Shown in pieces: positions 21,484-60,900 of a stretch of 64,000 nt of DNA. The notes beneath the pieces were generated by a model. It did no database searches. It was given only the letters and a program-made list of their open reading frames with translations, and was not told the origin of the DNA. Within the stretch, counting starts at the first letter, position 1. Each line of letters opens with the position of its first letter. Location: contig NC_090945.1 in the NCBI RefSeq assembly GCF_040807025.1, positions 76,849,088 through 76,913,087 of the forward strand, read 5' to 3'. The DNA is from Struthio camelus (taxonomy: Eukaryota > Chordata > Aves > Struthioniformes > Struthionidae). A program made the position numbers and the translations under genes.

Positions 21484-21673
21484 AAACAGAACACCTGGGA
21501 AGATGGCCCTGAGAGAGGGAGAAAACAACAGCAGCTCTGTCAATGACAAGCAAGAACAGAGTGGCAATCGTGTTATTACAATTGTCTTCCTGGCACTCCT
21601 CATTGACTTGTTGGGATTCGCTCTCATCTTGCCACTGTTTCCTTCCATCCTTGATTATTACAGCAAGACTGAG
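21484..21673 (+). CDS. MFSD10: MFSD10 first coding exon (CDS from 21503)
   Basis: The acceptor is a (TTTA)n tract ending tattcag at 21483, leaving 19 nt of 5' UTR before ATG 21503. It encodes a polar N terminus (MALREGENNSSSVNDKQEQ) and TM1 (VITIVFLALLIDLLGFALIL), ending KTE before gtaagt in phase 0. A second AG at 21489 could act as an alternative acceptor without changing the protein. Confidence 0.93.
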
Positions 21674-30600: not shown

Positions 30601-33545
30601 AGGCAATGATTGGTGTTGCTTTCTCCCTTGGTTTTACCCTGGGTCCCATGATTGGCGCTTACCTCGCAATGGAGGCAGAGAAAGGAGAAGTCTTCTTCCT
30701 TCGTTCAGCATTGTTAGCACTCATGTTTGCTGTGGCAGATTTACTTTTCATCTTCTTCCTGCTTCCGGAGACACTCCCCAAAGAAAAACGGGTAAATGAG
30801 TCAGTCTTTAGATCTGTGTTTCTTGCAGGCAGAGCCAGGATTTAAGAAATGTTGAAATGCTGGAAGAAACGTGGAAGGGCCGGAGCCAATATCCCAGGAA
30901 TTTAGCTTATTCCTGGGACCAGGTTTTAATACTCTATAAGCTGGTGGCAACAAAGCACAGTGGTTGTATGACAGTCCTACCTCCTAGCCCAGTGTAACAT
31001 AAGAAATGTGAATAGCTAACACAACTGCTTAATTGCTATTTTTGGTGTGCTGAGTTTAAATTTCTCAAAAACTAGTGAGACCCTGGGATGGAGAAGGTGA
31101 ATTTTGAACTATGATCACAATGAGTCCCTGGGGAGGAGTTTCAGCCAATCCTAAAAGTGCATGCATCAGGGAGCATGGATTTTCTTTCAATCGGCCAGAA
31201 TACATTAGAAATTTTCGTAAGTATTGTCTTATCTTTGCTTGACTATTTTGAACACTAATGTAGCAAATGACTCCAATCTCCAAGCTGTGCTGTCTTCCAC
31301 ACGTACAAAATATCTACTTCTGCTAAAATGCAGTGACTTTTTAGATTTGAAGGAAAAACATTCACTAGCACTGTGATTTTAATATTATATGATCGGACAC
31401 TGTCCGAGAGATATCTGAGGAAGTCTGTTGGAAGTCTCCTTTGTAGCGTGGGAAAGACTAAATTCAGTCCTAGGTATCTAGCTGAAACACTGTTAACCTG
31501 AGGCTTTTAGATGGGCTGGGTGTTTCCTATCGTCCCTTGTTTCTAAGCAGCGTTCAGCCATAGAAGCGTGGTTGGTCTCTGGACGGCGAAACCCATAGGA
31601 CACTGAATTCAGGAAGCTTTTTTGTCTGTGGTGCACCTGCCCAGGCAAAACTCTAGACCTGCCCTGAGTCTTTCCCAGCAGCATATCTCATGTGACATTG
31701 GTTGTTTGTTTGCTTATTTTCCCAAGCACTACAGTTACTTTTACAGCTTTTTTCATTCATCATTTCTTCCTTTTTCCTATTTGGCTGTTTTTAAACAATC
31801 CAAATAAAGCAAAATCTCGTTCTTGGTTAGAGCTGCTTCACTCTGCGGTGGTGACAACCTGTTGGTGTAAGGAGGTACCGTAGAGTGAATATGTATTCTA
31901 AAAGCAATTCCATCTTTGCTGTACAGGCAGTAGAGAGATAAAAGAGAGCTTCAGGAGCTTTGAGGACTGTACAATGAACTCTTGAGAGTTCTGCTGATAA
32001 ATTAGTCCTTGTTACTCTCAATATGATTGAGTTTTGATAAGACAATGAATACTCTGTCCCTGCTTTCTTGCGCTCTGTCTCTGTGTAACAGTAGGTATTG
32101 TATGGGGTGGATTTATGACTTCCAAAGTCATGCAGCCAGGTCCCAGTCATGCAAAATTGACACAGAGTGTTTAACTGCTGATGAGATAGTGGCTTTTCTG
32201 GCCTCAGAGCTTCCTCTAATTGATATCAGGGTTTAGTGCTATCAACCTGCATCTGTGTAGTGGCCCCATGTGATTTATTTGCTCTAAGGCATTTGCAATT
32301 GGCTGCTAGGCTGCTTTGCTCTTTTCTTGGGTGCTTCCTCCCAGTTTCTGAGCGGGCAGGGAGCAGTTTTCTAGATGCCCAGACGACAGGGGAAAGGCAG
32401 ATATGTTGGCTGCCTTTCTGGAGCTTGGCTGGGCTAAGCTGGAGCAAGTGTTCCTGGAGAAGGAACGGAGACGGTAGAAAGACAAAGCTGTAAAAAGAGG
32501 GCAAATGGTAATGATAACCGGTAGAAGGATGTGCCAATGGAATCGGACATCTGTTTCCCTGAAATGTGCTGTGTTCTCATGGTATCCTGTTTCTCCATCA
32601 CTCATCTTTCCATAGTGGGGAAGAGAAGCATTTCACATTCCCTTATGTTGGAATTAACTTGTAGAAAGGGGAAGGTGAAGGGGGACAGGAGGAGCAGGGC
32701 TGAGGTTTCATCTAAAGAGAACAGAGTTCTTTGCTATTCTTCTTCCCCTTTTTTTTTTTAATAATTCCCAAAGTTTCTCAGGTGGAGAGTTACTGGAGCT
32801 CTGTACCTTTCCGCTGTTGGAGATACTGGTCTTACGTGTGAGAGGGCTGAAACAGCCCTTCGGGAGAAGGGAGGAACAGAAATGTCTCCAGAAGAATCTG
32901 TCTCCTTTAAGGGTTTTTGAGTCTCTGTCTATTTTGAGCTAAGCTAGTCATAGGCAAGGCTGCCTTGCTGGAAAGGAGGGTCTTACGACGAGATTTTTGG
33001 TGTCTTACCGAGACTGTGTGTAGGGGTATGCAGCATCATTAGCAAACTCATGGGAAAACAGGGCTTTTCTTCTGTGCACACTAAATAGTGTATGATTTGG
33101 TGGCTAAGGCAATAGACGGGAGCTTGGAAGGCCCAGGCTGCATTCTCATTTGAACCAAAGCTGTGACTTCATAACATGTTACTTAGTCTCTGAGCGTCAG
33201 AGTGAAATACAGTAAATGGTATTTGAAGTTACTGTGAGGATACGTCTGATGTTTGAGGTGCGTGAAGTGATCGTGAAGTAAAATTGAGCAACTTTGAATA
33301 ATAAGTCAGAAGTATAGAGATTAAATACAGGTTGGAGACTGCAGGTTCAGAATCTGCAAAGCAGACCCCATACGGTTGGTGACATTCACGGAAACTGACC
33401 ATGCAACTTTGTTATTTGGGAATATTGAAATGTGTCAGTCAGTTTAGAAACAGAGTTAGCACTCAGCGTATGAAGTTGTTTCTCGACCACTGTTTCTGGG
33501 GCAAAGATAGCAGTAGAAGATATTATTTATAGATATAGATATATA

Positions 33546-48905: not shown

Positions 48906-49258
48906 TTAGGAGTCACTCTTCTTTTTGTTCTTCTTCAGGAAGGAAGGAGTGCGAAACTTCTTTTTCTTTTTCGATGGGGACTTTCCTGGAGATTCATCAC
49001 TACCTGCATCAGCTGCTGTTCCTTCCTCAGTTGTTGGCGTTACTGGCTCTTCAGTGGGTTGAGACTGGGGTTCTTTATTTTCCACTGCAGGTGATTCAGT
49101 TTGGCTTTTGGGCAGATCTTCATCACATCTCCCTTCCTCCTTTCCCAAGGGAGGGAAGCTGAGTGCTTCTGAAGGCTCATCAGGGGTGAGATCTGGGAGG
49201 GTTTGCTTGAAAGTTGCAGCATCACTGTCATCTTTGTAAGACCGGTCCTGCTGTGTCT
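48906..49258 (-). CDS. ADD1: ADD1 terminal coding exon (MARCKS-related domain)
   Basis: The acceptor is atccattag. It encodes ETQQDRSYKDDSDAATFKQT, LPDLTPDEPSEAL, a Glu/Pro/Thr-rich linker and the basic end KSPSKKKKKFRTPSFLKKNK then KKSDS before TAA. The linker is diverged from mammals, whereas the DDSDAATFK and basic blocks are conserved. Confidence 0.97.
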
Positions 49259-52118: not shown

Positions 52119-55100
52119 TTTGTGTGTGTGTGTGTGTATAAAAACATAAAACCCGAGGAGCTCCGTCCCCACTTCCGTGCAGAAGTCAGATGGATTAGTT
52201 TAAATCAACACCAGTGATAACACTTTTGCACTGAAATAGATTAAGATTTCTGTAACATTTCATTACCAGGTCTAAGTTATGCAGCCAGAAGCAAACTGTT
52301 GGGGCAGAAACTCCCAGAACTGTTTCAGCTATGTCTGAAAGACAACTCCAGACTATTCCTTTTTAAACTATGAGGAGTCAGAGACACAAATATGGAAACA
52401 CACAATGTCACTTTCACAGTCTCTTGTAAAAGAAGAGTGCATTTTAATGTAAATATCTATGACTATCTAGAATTTCAGGAAATCAACAACTAAAGAAGTC
52501 AGTGTCTCAACTGAAAAGAGCCTGCTTTTTTTTTTTTTTTTTTTTTCCAAACACACAACACACCAAAAAACTCAGTAAACAAAAATGCAAAAGCAAAGCA
52601 AAGCACATAAGCAGGTCAGAGTATGGAATGATACTTACTATGGTAACAGGTACTCTTTAGCATATCCATCTCCTGTTTGTAACGCAGCCACAAGAAGAAA
52701 AAAGCACAAGTAGAGAATCTATGCATTCATCACAGCCATTGTGTTAAATTAGAAGAATGGTTGCAACCATTCTTATAGAAAACAGAATGAGATGAAGTAG
52801 TGAGTGGAAGACTTTAACAGACAAGTGATATATCCAATGTACAAGGTAAAGGAAACAAGACAAAAATTAGATTACACCTGTTCAAGACTTAATATTTCTT
52901 TTTTGTTTTGAGGCAATTACAGACTTTCCCAGCCCTGCTCTCATTTTAGTTAAAATTACTACATAAGGTTAGTGACTAATAAAATTAAGACTCAAATTGA
53001 GTTGGAAAAATATATACGGAGGTGTAATCCAAGTACAATAATGTTTAAGAAATGTGCAGTCAGTGAAGGAGATTTACAAAACCATCTAATTTATGTCTGG
53101 TTCATCATCAGACATTATTTCATTTTATAAGAGCAATTCTCTCTTGCAGAAAACGCACAAAGGGGGTATTCGGCTGAGAAACATCAAGACATGACACAGC
53201 AATTCTGAAGTGGTGATAATCTGTCTTTATGTTAATGCACACTTCTTTATTATTGTAAACATAACTCCTATTACATTTACAGTTTATAAAAGTTAACACA
53301 AGAAATAATTTACCTTTATTAGGTACTAGCTCGTACATTATCATGCGTCAGTCACTAACGATGCAGTTACTGGCTTCCCCTGGCCCGCAAATGAAAAGAA
53401 CATACCTTCCTCTACTTTAATCGGTGTACTGGGAGGAGTGCGAGCTGAAGTGTGATCAGGGGGACTTCTCTCTTTCTGTTGTCTGCCATCTTCTGAAGGC
53501 TCTGCAGATGTAGAACAATAGAAGTTAAAAAAAAAAAAAAAAAGAACAAAACAGACAAAATGTTTCAGCATGCGGTAAGGCAAGACCACTCTCCTCCCCT
53601 CCACACTATGAATACATTTTTCTGAATCAAAATTCTGCTAGGATATTCAATAATACCAAAACAAGCAAAAGAAAAATAAGTGATAGTTTGATATCAACAA
53701 AACTGTTAAAGTCAAAGTCTGGCTTTGTTTTTGTGTCCCCTGCACCCCTCACCATGTAAGGGGGAAATAACAATTGTTTACAAACTGATATGGCAGCGTT
53801 TACAAACTGCTGTGGCAGACTGTTTGAGAACTTGTTAGGAAAAAAACTTAAGGAAAATATAAACAAGTACATGGACGAAAATGCTACCGGACTTGCACAC
53901 AACAATGTTCTTTTGCTTGCTTTGAATTGTTTGCTGAATTTCAGAGAAAACAAAATTGCATACCAAAAGAAAAGAATGAAAGACTGCACAGATAATCACA
54001 AAAACATGCAATAATTAAATGATTCAAAACAGATTTTGCAGTAGTTTGCGTATTTGTTATTAGTAAGGAGGGTTCCCCTTGCTTCCAGGTTTTAACAGCC
54101 CTATAGCCAAAAGAAAACATTAATGGAGTACACCTTGTAACAGGAACAATACTAAAACATTGTTCCATACAGTCCACCTAAACAATTAAAAGTGAAATCA
54201 GTCCCAGAGATGATGGGAGTCAACTGAGAGAATCTCCAAATGATGTAGATAAAGAGTTTGTTCCTTTGATTGCAAGCACAACTATACCATATTCATAATA
54301 CCTGAGGCCTCAGCCAAAAGGTCAGGATTAGACCTTAATGCTTTGACCACTGCAGTATGAAACTCCTTATGAGATGACTTCTGCACATCTGGCTCTTCTT
54401 GGTTAAGATGTGTGATGACTTGCTGCGTGGTCTGACAAGAAACCCATGCAGCAGCAAACTGAGTGTTATCTAAAGATTTAGACAGTGACAATACTTCACG
54501 ATCCTGTAAAGTCTTCGTATCTGCTCCTTGAAAGGTTTTTGATCTGCCTTTCAAATCCAGAGATTTTTTATCTGGAGTATTTTGCTCACTGATGTTCTGA
54601 TTTCTAAGCAAAGTACTCTGTTCCCCAGCGGGTGTCTGTCTCAGTAACACAGTCTCTCCACATTTTGAAATCTTATCTAAGAAGGATGTAGCAATGTTAC
54701 TGAGAGAATAAAGGTATGCAGTTACAGAGGCATAACAGCACAGTATCCCACTTCCCCAACCGGCCCAGTACTCGTGCAACTGAAAACAGATGATCTACAA
54801 TGTGTTATCCAAAAGCTGAAGCATGGAGCACACACTACAAGACAGTTCCTGCATCATTCAAACTGTAACAGATTAGTGGAAATGTCCTAAGTAAAATCCC
54901 ATGAAGCTTAAAAATAAGTAACACAGGGTAACTACTCCAGATGTAATAATGATCTCTTTTTACAGCATGATTCAGAATTTTATCATCCTTTAGAAAGTCT
55001 CTGCTTCTGGGGAATCCTCGAGATGCACCATCTCCAAGCAGCAATCAAGTTTTGTTCTGCATCTTCCCAATTCAGATTTCTTGGGTCTACAAATTTCAAC

Positions 55101-57912
55101 AAGTTAGAAAACTGCAACTTGCTGCAGAAAAGCAACATCATTCTTTCACCTCAGACTATCTCCAGTGCTTAGGGAAACAAAGCAGAACAAGCTGCAGTTC
55201 TTTGCAGTACCTGAACGTTTCAACGAGTGAAGTGTCAAGATTTCTAGAACCTAGCAGCAGCAATAACTGGCCATTTTAAACACCCTTTTTTGGGTACTAG
55301 GAAAATTTTTCAAATAAAATCTACACATTTTACAGAATACCCCAAAACCATTAAATTGCACTATCACCAATATGCTTTCTAAGTTCATAATTTACACTGG
55401 AAAACTGAAACACAGAAGCTGAATAACAGTTCCTTGACTTCGGCAGGTAACCCACAATCCAAAGTAATGCTGCTGTTATTACAGCCACTTGCAGAAAACA
55501 ACACACAGGCAAACCCACCTTCTGGCCCCTTCTGCTTTCTTTCTACTTCTTTGCGATATTCTTCCAGTTCTCGATCAGTGAGCTTATTGAAGGGATTTGG
55601 TCCTGTTGTGCTCACTATGACTCTTGGCTGATACTCTTTCTCAATTATTGCCTTTGATGCAGTCACCAGTTCTCCCTGACAAAAAACAATTAAGATAAAT
55701 CTGCGATCCAGCAGTAACTTGCAGAACCCTGGAAAGTACAGAAGTCACAAAGCAGCCAAAAATGAAACAAAAGATAATTTGAAAAATGCTATATTAATTT
55801 TCTTTTAGGTTTAAAGAATAAAATTCTCTATTTCAGAATTAAAAAGTAATAATAATTTACAGCAGGTTAATGTTAAGGAAAAAGCAGGTCTCATCAATTA
55901 TTTTCGCAGAGACATCAGTGTTTTCACCAGGCAATATCCACCATTAAGCAGCAAATCAAATAGCAGCCAAACAGTTTAGCTAGGTCATATTTGAAGTCAC
56001 AAAAGTATCAACTTTCTTTTACTCCCAAGAGAAACAGGACACTAGGCCCAACTGCACAGCAATCTAGGCATGGCGTTCCTGTAGAAATTAACAGGACTGG
56101 CAGCTAATGCTCATAGGTTCAAATAAAATTTGAGTACGGGAAAAGCCATTTCTGGTAGCTTTTATATAACATCTAACAGACGTTACAGTAAAAGCCATCT
56201 TGTACGTATTCTGTGTACACCAGATTAACTGTTTACTATAAGCTATTTGTAAGTAAATAAGGTTAACATAATCTTATTATGAGTTAGCATGTTCACTTCT
56301 ATAACATGTCATACAAGCAGGATAAAAATTTATACAAATAAAGCATTAGCAATTCTAAATACAGTAAGCCCCAAGGGACAAAAACAGCTGCATCAGAGAT
56401 TCTCTCTGTAATGGCAAGTTTTTTATTTTTTCTTCTCTAAGCTTATGGTGAAGACTAAAGTCACTGGCTTCACATCATCTCAGATACAGAAGACTAGTTG
56501 ACCCAATAGCTGCCCCACCTTTGAGGTGTCTTGTCTAAGAATTTGTCTTCTCACCCGATACTCAGAACATTACTGAGACACGTTTGAAAACGACTGATGC
56601 GTGTGATCTGTGCTTCTCAGTGTGATTCCCAAGTTGTCTCCATTGCCAAAAAGAGGGTCATTTAACTTCATTACCAAAGTAGCGTGGGATATTGATTGGC
56701 CTAAATCATTTTCACGTTTGTATTGGTATTTTAAAGAAAGCATAAACACGTGAAGAGTTTAAGAATAATCACAGTGTGGATGAACACACAGGTATTCCAC
56801 CCCCCGTCCATGCTTGACGGCCAAGCAAGAGAGCTTCACTATAGAACCGAAAACGAGACAAGACGGAATGTTGTTTTGGACGCGAAGAGCGCTTGGGACC
56901 AAAAGGTCAGGACCAGAAAGGTGCCAGACAAGAATGTCTACGTGGGATGAGGCAAAGAGCAGTTAGATATTTCTTGAAGCCTCACAAGAGATCTCCAGGA
57001 ACCTGCACTGGCATGGAGAAATCCAGGGCGATAAGAATAGCTGGTTCTTAGAATCTACGCTTCTATTCAGGAAGCTCACGTCAGCCAGAGTACTGAAGAA
57101 CACACAGCGTTACCACAGCTCTCCACTACAAGATCCTGAAGAGAAAGATTTACAAAACTTTATAAACTGTCTCTCGTCCTAGATGCAGAGGGTCCGTAAA
57201 CACCAAAAGTCTCAACTATTTCCACTAAGCACCTGCTATCTTAATACTAGAAAACCTCAAGTTTGATACTTACAGCTTTTCTTATAGGATCATACATTAA
57301 AAGAAGCCAGAAAACATCAGCCTTTACACCAATTATATTTTGGCGAACAAACGTAACACCTCGCCCGCCAAACTACAGGCTCCAGCTTTTAATGACAGCA
57401 GAAATCGGTACCCATGCAATTTTAGCTGTCTATTTCTGCCCATCCTCCCAAACTAAATAGGCAGTCTTTAACTGAAACATCGGCAATAAGCAACAGGAAC
57501 CTACTAAGTACACAGGCAAATACATACAGAGAGTATTCTAGGACTGTAAAAATCAATAGAGAAGGAGCAAAACATACAGTGCACGCTGACGTCACTGAAA
57601 TGTTTAGGACTCTTAGAAACTTGTCTGCAAGATAAATCCAAAACGACTGGATAGAACGAAACGAAACGAGATTTTACTCAACGCCTATGAAGTGGCAGCA
57701 ACAAACAGCAAGGCATGCAGTTTGCAACAAGATCACTAATTCATTGGCATTACGAATGTTTTTTCTTAAGAGAACACCTTTGTTAACTACCGAGAAGTAA
57801 AAGCAGCACTAAGTTTATCACTTACTTAAGAAATTCAGTACCAAAGACGGGAAAATAACACAAAGGGACCTGGAAAGTTGAATATGAAATCAAGATTCAT
57901 CAACCAGAAAAA

Positions 57913-57954
<42 letters not shown>

Positions 57955-60900
57955 TCATATATATATACACATACATATATGAATGCACTGATGCGCAGAA
58001 TTTTAAACAGAATTTATATCAGCTGAATATCTTTGACTCAAGAGAAATAACGTTTAAAAAGATCACAGGCAACAACAGAAAGCAGATTATACGTGACAAA
58101 TAAAAAGCACTTGTGTTTTTGGACTGCAAAAGCAGAAGACTTACATGACAGCCCAGCTGGATGATAGCGATTCTAGTATCATGGAGATGACTATTAGAGG
58201 TCTGACTACCCGCATCAACGCTTGACTATCAATAGCGTTTCCTCCACCATAAGAAATAGTGGATAAATGATATCTATAAACAGAACGTATTTTCACTCCC
58301 GAGAAGTTTGCAGCGACTTACTCACCCAGAATGACTGGGCAAAGGGAAAGGTAGTTACGGCTAATGATGTACCTTCATACTAAACTTAGGACTTCACATA
58401 TCCTACACGAAAACTCTAGATTATCAAGTCATTTTGCAACTTCTCCACTATATCCTGCTTTCAAAGAAAAACTGAGAAATACAAGGTGATCAACATTTAA
58501 TAGACAAGTACTTCATCTTATTCTCAGGGAGGGGTATGAGCAAAACTAGCACCTTATACATACCATTTTTCCCATTAATCAAACAATATATTCACAGTAA
58601 CTGACTAAAGTTAATCAGTCTTAATACCATCTGACATTAATGTAGTGCCTTTATCCAAAAAAACCCCCAAGATCCTTAACGCACTTTTCAACTTGGAATC
58701 ACCCTTACACTCCAGTGCTACCTCTGGAGGCAGAGCAGAGAGGCTACTCATTAAGGCACAGAATTTTCATTTTAAAATAAAAGACAAGAAATGGGCTATT
58801 CCCTTGTACTTCAAATTCTCTTGTTTTAAACACTTTTATTAGATTGCAGGATGTCAGTGGTAAGAATAACCAACATTCTGGTTCAGCCAAGACTGCAGCA
58901 GAAGCTCAGTTAACCAAGTCTGTAACATTAATAAAATCAGGATGCACGAGGAGCTTGTGTTGCAACATGGCGAGGACTTCTCCCAGCGCTGCCAAAGCAC
59001 GACAAGGCAAAACGGAGCATTTACTGATGCAGCTGTAGGCAGACAAGACTCAAAGCATTACATGCATACTGTACACAATGCGGGAATTTTTTCACCCAAA
59101 ATCGTGTGTGTTGATATAGTTGATATAGCTTTCAATGTTAATTGAAAGCATAATATATTTTTAAGTCTTATTGCAATCAGAGATGGAACTTTTCACTCAA
59201 ATTGTAAATGAGTGCCTAAAAATTTGTCAGCTGAAAACTTCTAATTATCTGGTACCTAAATGTTCTTAAGACCTTGATATACAGGTTTCTTTCTTACAGC
59301 TTCATTTACTGTGGGATTTATGTGGGTGTCATTAGACTGTGGAACAGGAACTATACGAACTATGGCATTGATTTTCAGCATAATGTTTCTAAAAAAAATT
59401 TCTCCGGCTTTTTTTGCAACAAAAAACTCCTCATTAAGAATTCAGGTCACAATATTTATTAAGATGATAACGAAATTGGCCACTCCTACTCGAGCTGACA
59501 TTCTGAATGATCTAATTTTACAGAGTATTTCAGGAGGGAAGCACTTTCACAGCACCACAAAGGAGGAATGCATCATTTGGACACCTAAACCCTAACGTTA
59601 TATCACTAACAAAACCATATAGCCAACTGACCTTTCTTGTTGGCTACTGGCTGTCTTTAAAACTCCTTATAAAATATTTGAGTAATTTTATAGAAAGACG
59701 ATGCAGTTAGTCAAAAAGAATACCTGAAAGATACCTTGCACATTACTGGTGAAAGAAATTGCCTGTTTACCATAACCAACGCATGTCTATCATAAAAGTC
59801 ACCTTTTGCTTGGAAGGTATTATTAAACAAAAAAGCTACTACAACAAAGGGCAGGCACTGCCTTGAGGAATTTGCTTTTTTTTTTTTTGTTTGTTTTTAA
59901 ATCTTGCATCCGGAAAGAACATGTTATGATTCTTCCTTTCAAATATGGATAAAACAAATCATAATCTGAAACACTTTTATCAAATTCTCAGTATGATAAA
60001 GACTATAATACAAACTGGCTGATTACTCCCAAGAAAGGTTATAAAGTCACGAGATTTGCAGCTATAACGCAATTCAAATTGTTCTGGTTTTTGATGAGAA
60101 AACTGTTCTGATAATAAGATTTTAGCCACAACCTAGATCAAGATTTAAAAAATTGTTAGAGAAAAACACTGAGACAGAAAAGAGACCCTGATGCATATCT
60201 ACACCCTGTACACTTGGACATTAGATTACCTCTACCTAAACGCCTAAAAAACTTGGGAGAGACAGACAACTAAGGACAGATTGTTTCCAATATGGAACTG
60301 TTCCTATTTACTCAGTCTCAAAGGACTTCACCTCCCTTCCCCTGCACACCTATTGTATCTATTCTGTATTCGAAGTATAATACATAAGCCAATAGCATGA
60401 ATATATTAACAGCTTCAAAGCCAATGTATTTCGAATGTGCGAGGCATTATTCAGTATCTCTTGTACATCAACTCAGGAAGTTTTAAGGAAACACAAGACA
60501 TCTAGCAATGTAGGATTAAAAGCTGGCAGTGTTTGTCAGCATGACACATCCCGATCATGTGGATATCTTCAGAATTACACTGATGTAATCAGGCTGAGCT
60601 TAAGCTAGCTCAAAATGGATCTCAAATTAGAATAATTCAATATTAATAACATGCGCAAAAAACCTGCTACATGCACAACCTGTTCAGCACCTTCACATCA
60701 AAAATGTTTCCCCAATAGCTTTTTTTACACACATATATGTATAAAATCAAAATCCTTAAATAATACTTTTTACAGGGTAACTTAACTGCTTGTATAATTG
60801 CATATACGTAATTTGGAGATCCATCTATTTTTTTTCCTTTTATAGCCAAATCATTAGCTCAGAAAGGGAAGAGGTCAAGGGTAAGGAAGAGGTAAATGAA

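Follow-up and report, generated by a model that had tools for sequence, protein, structure and literature searches.

Optional exons are common in disordered tails. For the alpha-adducin gene ADD1, Lin et al. reportedly described, in 1995, an alternative donor of exon 10 that inserts 31 residues near residue 471. PMC7224547 presents ADD1 exon 15 as a 34-nt alternative exon under the control of MBNL2; according to two further papers, the same exon is also affected in Srrm4-mutant mice (PMC3464207) and Add1 isoforms are shifted by loss of MBNL2 (PMC13044900), and the review PMC5976920 describes in ADD3 a cassette exon upstream of the MARCKS-related region. Our search of the full-text literature, by titles and abstract openings, gave no exon between ADD1 exons 13 and 14 among the matches listed, and the terms ADD1, ADD3 and adducin are all missing from a chick splicing paper (PMC8456117).

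Within the window, by which we mean the whole 64,000-nt stretch of DNA analysed here, the tail of ADD1 lies on the minus strand and harbours, in an intron of 2017 nt with 38% GC, a candidate cassette exon between the counterparts of exons 13 and 14. Exon numbers 13 to 16 are those of human ADD1, which we take to apply here.

55519 to 55675, minus strand: ADD1 exon 13-like, the upstream exon, 157 nt, ending in phase 1; matches positions 536-587 of the Adducin 1 chain in PDB 8iah
54700 to 54701, minus strand: AG of a competing upstream acceptor, 3.19 bits; an exon starting from it at 54699 reaches a stop after seven codons
54677 to 54678, minus strand: acceptor AG of the candidate exon, ...CTACATCCTTCTTAG/ATAAG, 2.95 bits
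54302 to 54676, minus strand: candidate cassette exon, 375 nt, 125 residues (DKISKCGETVLL...NPDLLAEAS), open, phase 1 at both ends
54588 to 54589, minus strand: possible internal donor, TCA/GTGAGC, 0.56 bits, giving an 87-nt in-frame version
54300 to 54301, minus strand: donor GT of the candidate exon, GCCTCAG/GTATTA, weak, -0.71 bits
53406 to 53501, minus strand: ADD1 exon 14-like, 96 nt, the downstream exon with TPPSTPIK; second, weak stretch of 8iah (7.5 bits)
52639 to 52672, minus strand: ADD1 exon 15-like, 34 nt, reading GDGYAKEYLLP and then a stop; the known alternative exon of the tail
48909 to 49258, minus strand: last coding exon of ADD1, with the MARCKS-like basic end

The sequence-only reading had assigned the flanking exons to the ADD1 tail, and database comparison bears this out. 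The exon 13-like sequence matched the 'Adducin 1' chain of PDB 8iah, which we take to be from pig (E 2e-24, whole query). Both this chain and the Aldolase_II/adducin domain were also matched by an exon lying upstream of the window. In the 8iah chain, KGPE is followed directly by the exon 14-like part, by a weak alignment (7.5 bits), and the candidate segment is absent. The exon 13 donor reads AAG/GTGGGT; its frame stays open for about 44 codons beyond it (55388-55518, minus strand), and a later donor there could add residues.

Equally exact was the description of the candidate itself as an open stretch of 375 nt that can be taken in or left out without a change of frame. Phase 1 is both the exit phase of exon 55675-55519 and the entry phase of exon 53501-53406, an AG precedes and a GT follows the segment, and the joined frame runs across all 375 nt without a stop, so that inclusion adds 125 residues in frame. 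They fall after the KQKGPE stretch and before the TPPSTPIK segment, and the tail, counted from exon 13 up to the stop, measures 326 residues with the candidate exon and 201 without it. A complete CDK-type motif, TPDK, occurs in the candidate peptide, as does a further TP site.

Set beside the described variants, the candidate is, as a splice variant, of an ordinary kind. It resembles the exon 10 insert as reported in being in frame, optional and in the same gene, and differs from it in that the latter is said to belong to an earlier exon, near residue 471, and to be shorter; the idea that the candidate is this mammalian 31-residue insert was dropped because of that reported position. Like ADD1 exon 15, as the papers cited above present it, the candidate would be an optional exon with weak splice sites in the tail of the same gene, whose 34-nt counterpart is present here at 52672-52639; unlike exon 15, whose stop cuts the tail short, it stays in frame and lengthens the tail. 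As with the ADD3 cassette exon described in PMC5976920, the insert would be optional and within an adducin tail, although in another gene, and the candidate peptide shows no similarity in the partial, 3-kb ADD3-like and ADD2-like loci. A homologous exon in the paralogues was accordingly rejected, tblastn having given no match in these partial loci, namely the ADD2-like L003 (contig C27) and the ADD3-like L004 (contig C7). The ADD2-like tail of L003 (G000:C27:3094743-3097835) lies amid proline- and glycine-rich repeat frames hundreds of codons long, its adducin motif falling within a 1312-codon open frame that we take to be mostly tandem-repeat DNA.

We scored the splice sites with simple weight matrices of general averages, which are crude and no trained splice predictor. 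The candidate acceptor, at 2.95 bits, is close to those of exons 14 (2.85) and 16 (2.81), and 5.4% of the 533 AG sites in 61900-53502 match it; the candidate donor, at -0.71 bits, falls short of every other ADD1 donor we scored (six, 1.63 to 6.13), and 10% of the 570 GT sites in the same interval reach or exceed it. The acceptor of the exon 15 counterpart scores -0.31 bits, so that weak sites are nothing out of the ordinary in a regulated ADD1 exon, and a weak donor combined with an equal upstream acceptor fits an exon that is mostly skipped. Motifs of splicing factors occur as TGCATG at 54450 and 54010 and as a TTCTCT-type motif at 54708, among others, these being raw occurrences with no chance level set.

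A stronger upstream acceptor at 54706, leading to a premature stop, had been named as the weakness of the candidate. The competing acceptor is real, and the exon entered from it at 54699 reads VTLLHPS followed by a stop; its AG, however, lies at 54701-54700, and its score of 3.19 bits against 2.95 makes it about equal rather than clearly stronger. The two acceptors are 23 nt apart, have near-equal scores and give opposite frame outcomes, as would be expected if the exon had two fates, entry at 54699 making it a poison exon subject to nonsense-mediated decay and entry at 54676 making it an insert, the choice setting both the amount and the kind of ADD1 product. Matrix scores are crude and both acceptors are predicted from sequence, which speaks against this account, and we regard it as highly improbable. 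A lineage-specific version of it, in which acceptor choice would tune the amount of adducin together with the reach of the membrane-skeleton linker, likewise earns very little credence from us.

The 5' boundary was further examined through the residues encoded in the same frame on both sides of the acceptor, whose character shifts in its vicinity, in favour of the exon. Hydrophobic residues make up 21 of 39 upstream and 30 of 124 in the exon (Fisher p 0.0008), and charged residues 1 of 39 and 31 of 124 (Fisher p 0.001). The best hydrophobicity breaks fell at 54641 and 54701, the break at 54677 coming fourth; under a position model for which three ADD1 exons served as the training set, the best-scoring segment starts at 54734, upstream of the acceptor, and ends at 54297, five bases off the exon end. 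The 5' boundary of the candidate exon is thus less sharp, since both the segment start and the breaks lie away from the acceptor.

The sequence-only reading had also held that the encoded peptide is unlike that of most chance frames. A frame that arose in an intron by accident, was never spliced in and has splice-like ends by coincidence would be one alternative to a coding exon. In dinucleotide shuffles of the intron, a 170-codon sense frame such as that around the exon was matched in 10 of 3000, and some 125-codon sense frame was reached in 147 of 3000; the latter count agrees with a chance frame, and length alone is for this reason suggestive only. Composition was compared with simulations that were themselves open frames, so that these nulls are already conditioned on openness. 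The base-by-codon-position chi-square of the exon was 27.2, whereas the null averaged 7.4 (p 0.001, 2000 simulations), and that of the whole 170-codon frame was 19.3 (p 0.035). Among 24 held-out coding segments (spectrin and kinase genes, same genome), values spanned 11.9 to 53.7, and seven lay above the exon. When the exon was halved, the second half carried the signal (p 0.000 as printed, 600 simulations; first half, p 0.278). Among the 31 frames of the window with at least 100 codons and less than 50% GC, the chi-square exceeded 20 in three, namely a NOP14-assigned frame (70.4), the last ADD1 exon (26.0) and a plus-strand frame at 59278-59592 (20.3) matched to no gene.

The ADD1-trained position score of the candidate exon was likewise extreme (p 0.0004 against 5000 open-frame simulations). 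Its frame reached 18.7 bits, compared with -35.8 and -26.6 for the other sense frames and 10.2 for one antisense frame, and the 170-codon frame came third of the 31 (z 1.86), behind the NOP14-assigned frame (4.03) and ADD1 exon 16 (3.38). Matched for composition, the exon has a z of 2.10, above those of ADD1 exons 13, 14 and 16 (1.43, 0.64 and 1.81); the 24 held-out segments span 0.82 to 4.26, two being lower and one equal. A cruder position score with general frequencies, since superseded by the models trained on the same genome, was equalled or exceeded by 24 of 702 open 124-codon windows and placed the frame fifth of 77.

Plain codon log-odds went the other way. With 15 AT3-rich training segments the exon scored 0.04 bits per codon, under every one of the 15 held-out segments, of which the lowest had 0.061. 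When all 53 intervals were used for training, it scored -0.176 and did not stand out from the other five frames (-0.37 to -0.14). These 53 were kept from 60, after removal of L017, L030, L060, L061 and L062 for stops and of L052 and L059 as near-duplicates. The ten best frames of the window by this measure all lie in the GC-rich 18.4-19.7 kb, and the measure is for that reason perhaps largely driven by GC. The claim of a frame unlike chance draws on position-specific composition and on the 170-codon length, and is not favoured by plain codon usage.

We also ranked the candidate among all comparable intervals of the window and 40 kb beyond it (104 kb, 99 kb readable), on both strands. The scan admitted open frames between about 120 and 600 nt long with an acceptor of at least 2.5 bits, a donor of at least -0.75 bits and a GC content of at most 50%; its cut-offs were chosen in knowledge of the candidate's splice scores, which assured its listing but not its rank, and its score was trained on spectrin and kinase exons, without ADD1. 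Of the 132 exon-like intervals found, 65 remained once overlaps were removed, and the candidate exon came seventh of these with a score of 2.49, a small margin over the next (89483-89629, 1.34), which is without a Pfam match. The six intervals ranked higher overlap exons that we assign to genes. Two are NOP14-like, with Pfam Nop14 matches (E 0.0011 and 0.0014) that each miss the curated cut-off; 72290-72439 is an ADD1 head exon confirmed by Pfam and PDB; 71192-71335, without a Pfam match, is presumably another ADD1 head exon; and 21484-21673, also without a Pfam match, we take to be an exon of MFSD10, its antisense ranking above the candidate as well. Another piece, at 30603-30791, matches Pfam MFS_1 (E 3.6e-5, below the cut-off). 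Two real ADD1 exons fell under the candidate, exon 13, within a longer interval, at 11th and 79041-79192 at 22nd, which indicates that the score separates imperfectly; exons 14 and 15 are shorter than the length limit. Ordered by length, the scan placed first the candidate's 54699 variant (132 codons, not in the frame entered from exon 13) and second a NOP14-like interval of 131 codons. The top position score of the 31 belonged to the plus-strand frame at 1307-1774, an acidic one of 156 codons that matches Nop14 weakly (E 0.0011, below cut-off).

Taken with its neighbours in the scan, which are assigned to real exons, and with its composition (p 0.001 and 0.0004), the candidate exon looks like more than chance; the weak donor, the competing acceptor and a codon log-odds that is not coding-like keep a never-spliced chance frame in play as an unlikely explanation. 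The pairing of coding composition with a weak donor, and the absence of the segment from the 8iah ADD1 chain, would also suit a relic, that is, an ancestral coding exon now skipped or decaying that retains its leftover composition. A run of 125 codons without a stop or frameshift, with AG and GT in place, argues against decay, and we judge a relic very unlikely.

One copy of the candidate sequence was found. In the genome searched (1.45 Gb in 262 contigs, the window lying on contig C4), the peptide and the DNA each gave one match, the candidate itself, the repeat counts being lower bounds; origin as an exonised transposable element is not supported, neither protein nor DNA search having found a second copy. 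The peptide had no relative in Pfam or PDB up to E 10, the viral and prokaryote contigs, searched with the insert and with exon 13 for strays of vertebrate origin, gave no match, and Rfam gave none over the window at gathering scores; the lack of Pfam, PDB, viral or prokaryote relatives says little in the case of a disordered vertebrate insert. In the same genome, contigs G000:C40 and G000:C41 share six pairs of kinase matches with equal or near-equal scores, their coordinates differing by about 18 to 20 Mb, one pair being on opposite strands and one C41 match unpaired, as if one chromosome were present twice in the assembly, either as haplotypes or as little-differentiated sex chromosomes.

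We conclude that 54676-54302 is probably a coding cassette exon of ADD1, mostly skipped and included in some cells or stages, a reading drawn from sequence statistics. The proposal of an optional extension of the ADD1 tail is upheld to the extent that the segment behaves, by these statistics, as a coding, frame-neutral cassette; the 8iah chain without it fits skipping and absence alike. Automated annotation of bird genomes may include the exon already. Default inclusion of such a cassette exon would be held down by its weak donor and by the competing upstream acceptor of nearly the same strength. Where included, the exon would insert 125 mostly hydrophilic residues into the alpha-adducin tail, between KQKGPE and TPPSTPIK, and would thereby lengthen the linker that bears the MARCKS-like basic end and add potential phosphorylation sites to it; from this we infer that binding of actin or spectrin may be affected. 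If the exon is used, alpha-adducin in a bird-like lineage would carry 125 additional tail residues before the MARCKS-like basic end, and this would be relevant to the tuning of the spectrin-actin skeleton, for example in nucleated red cells or neurons.
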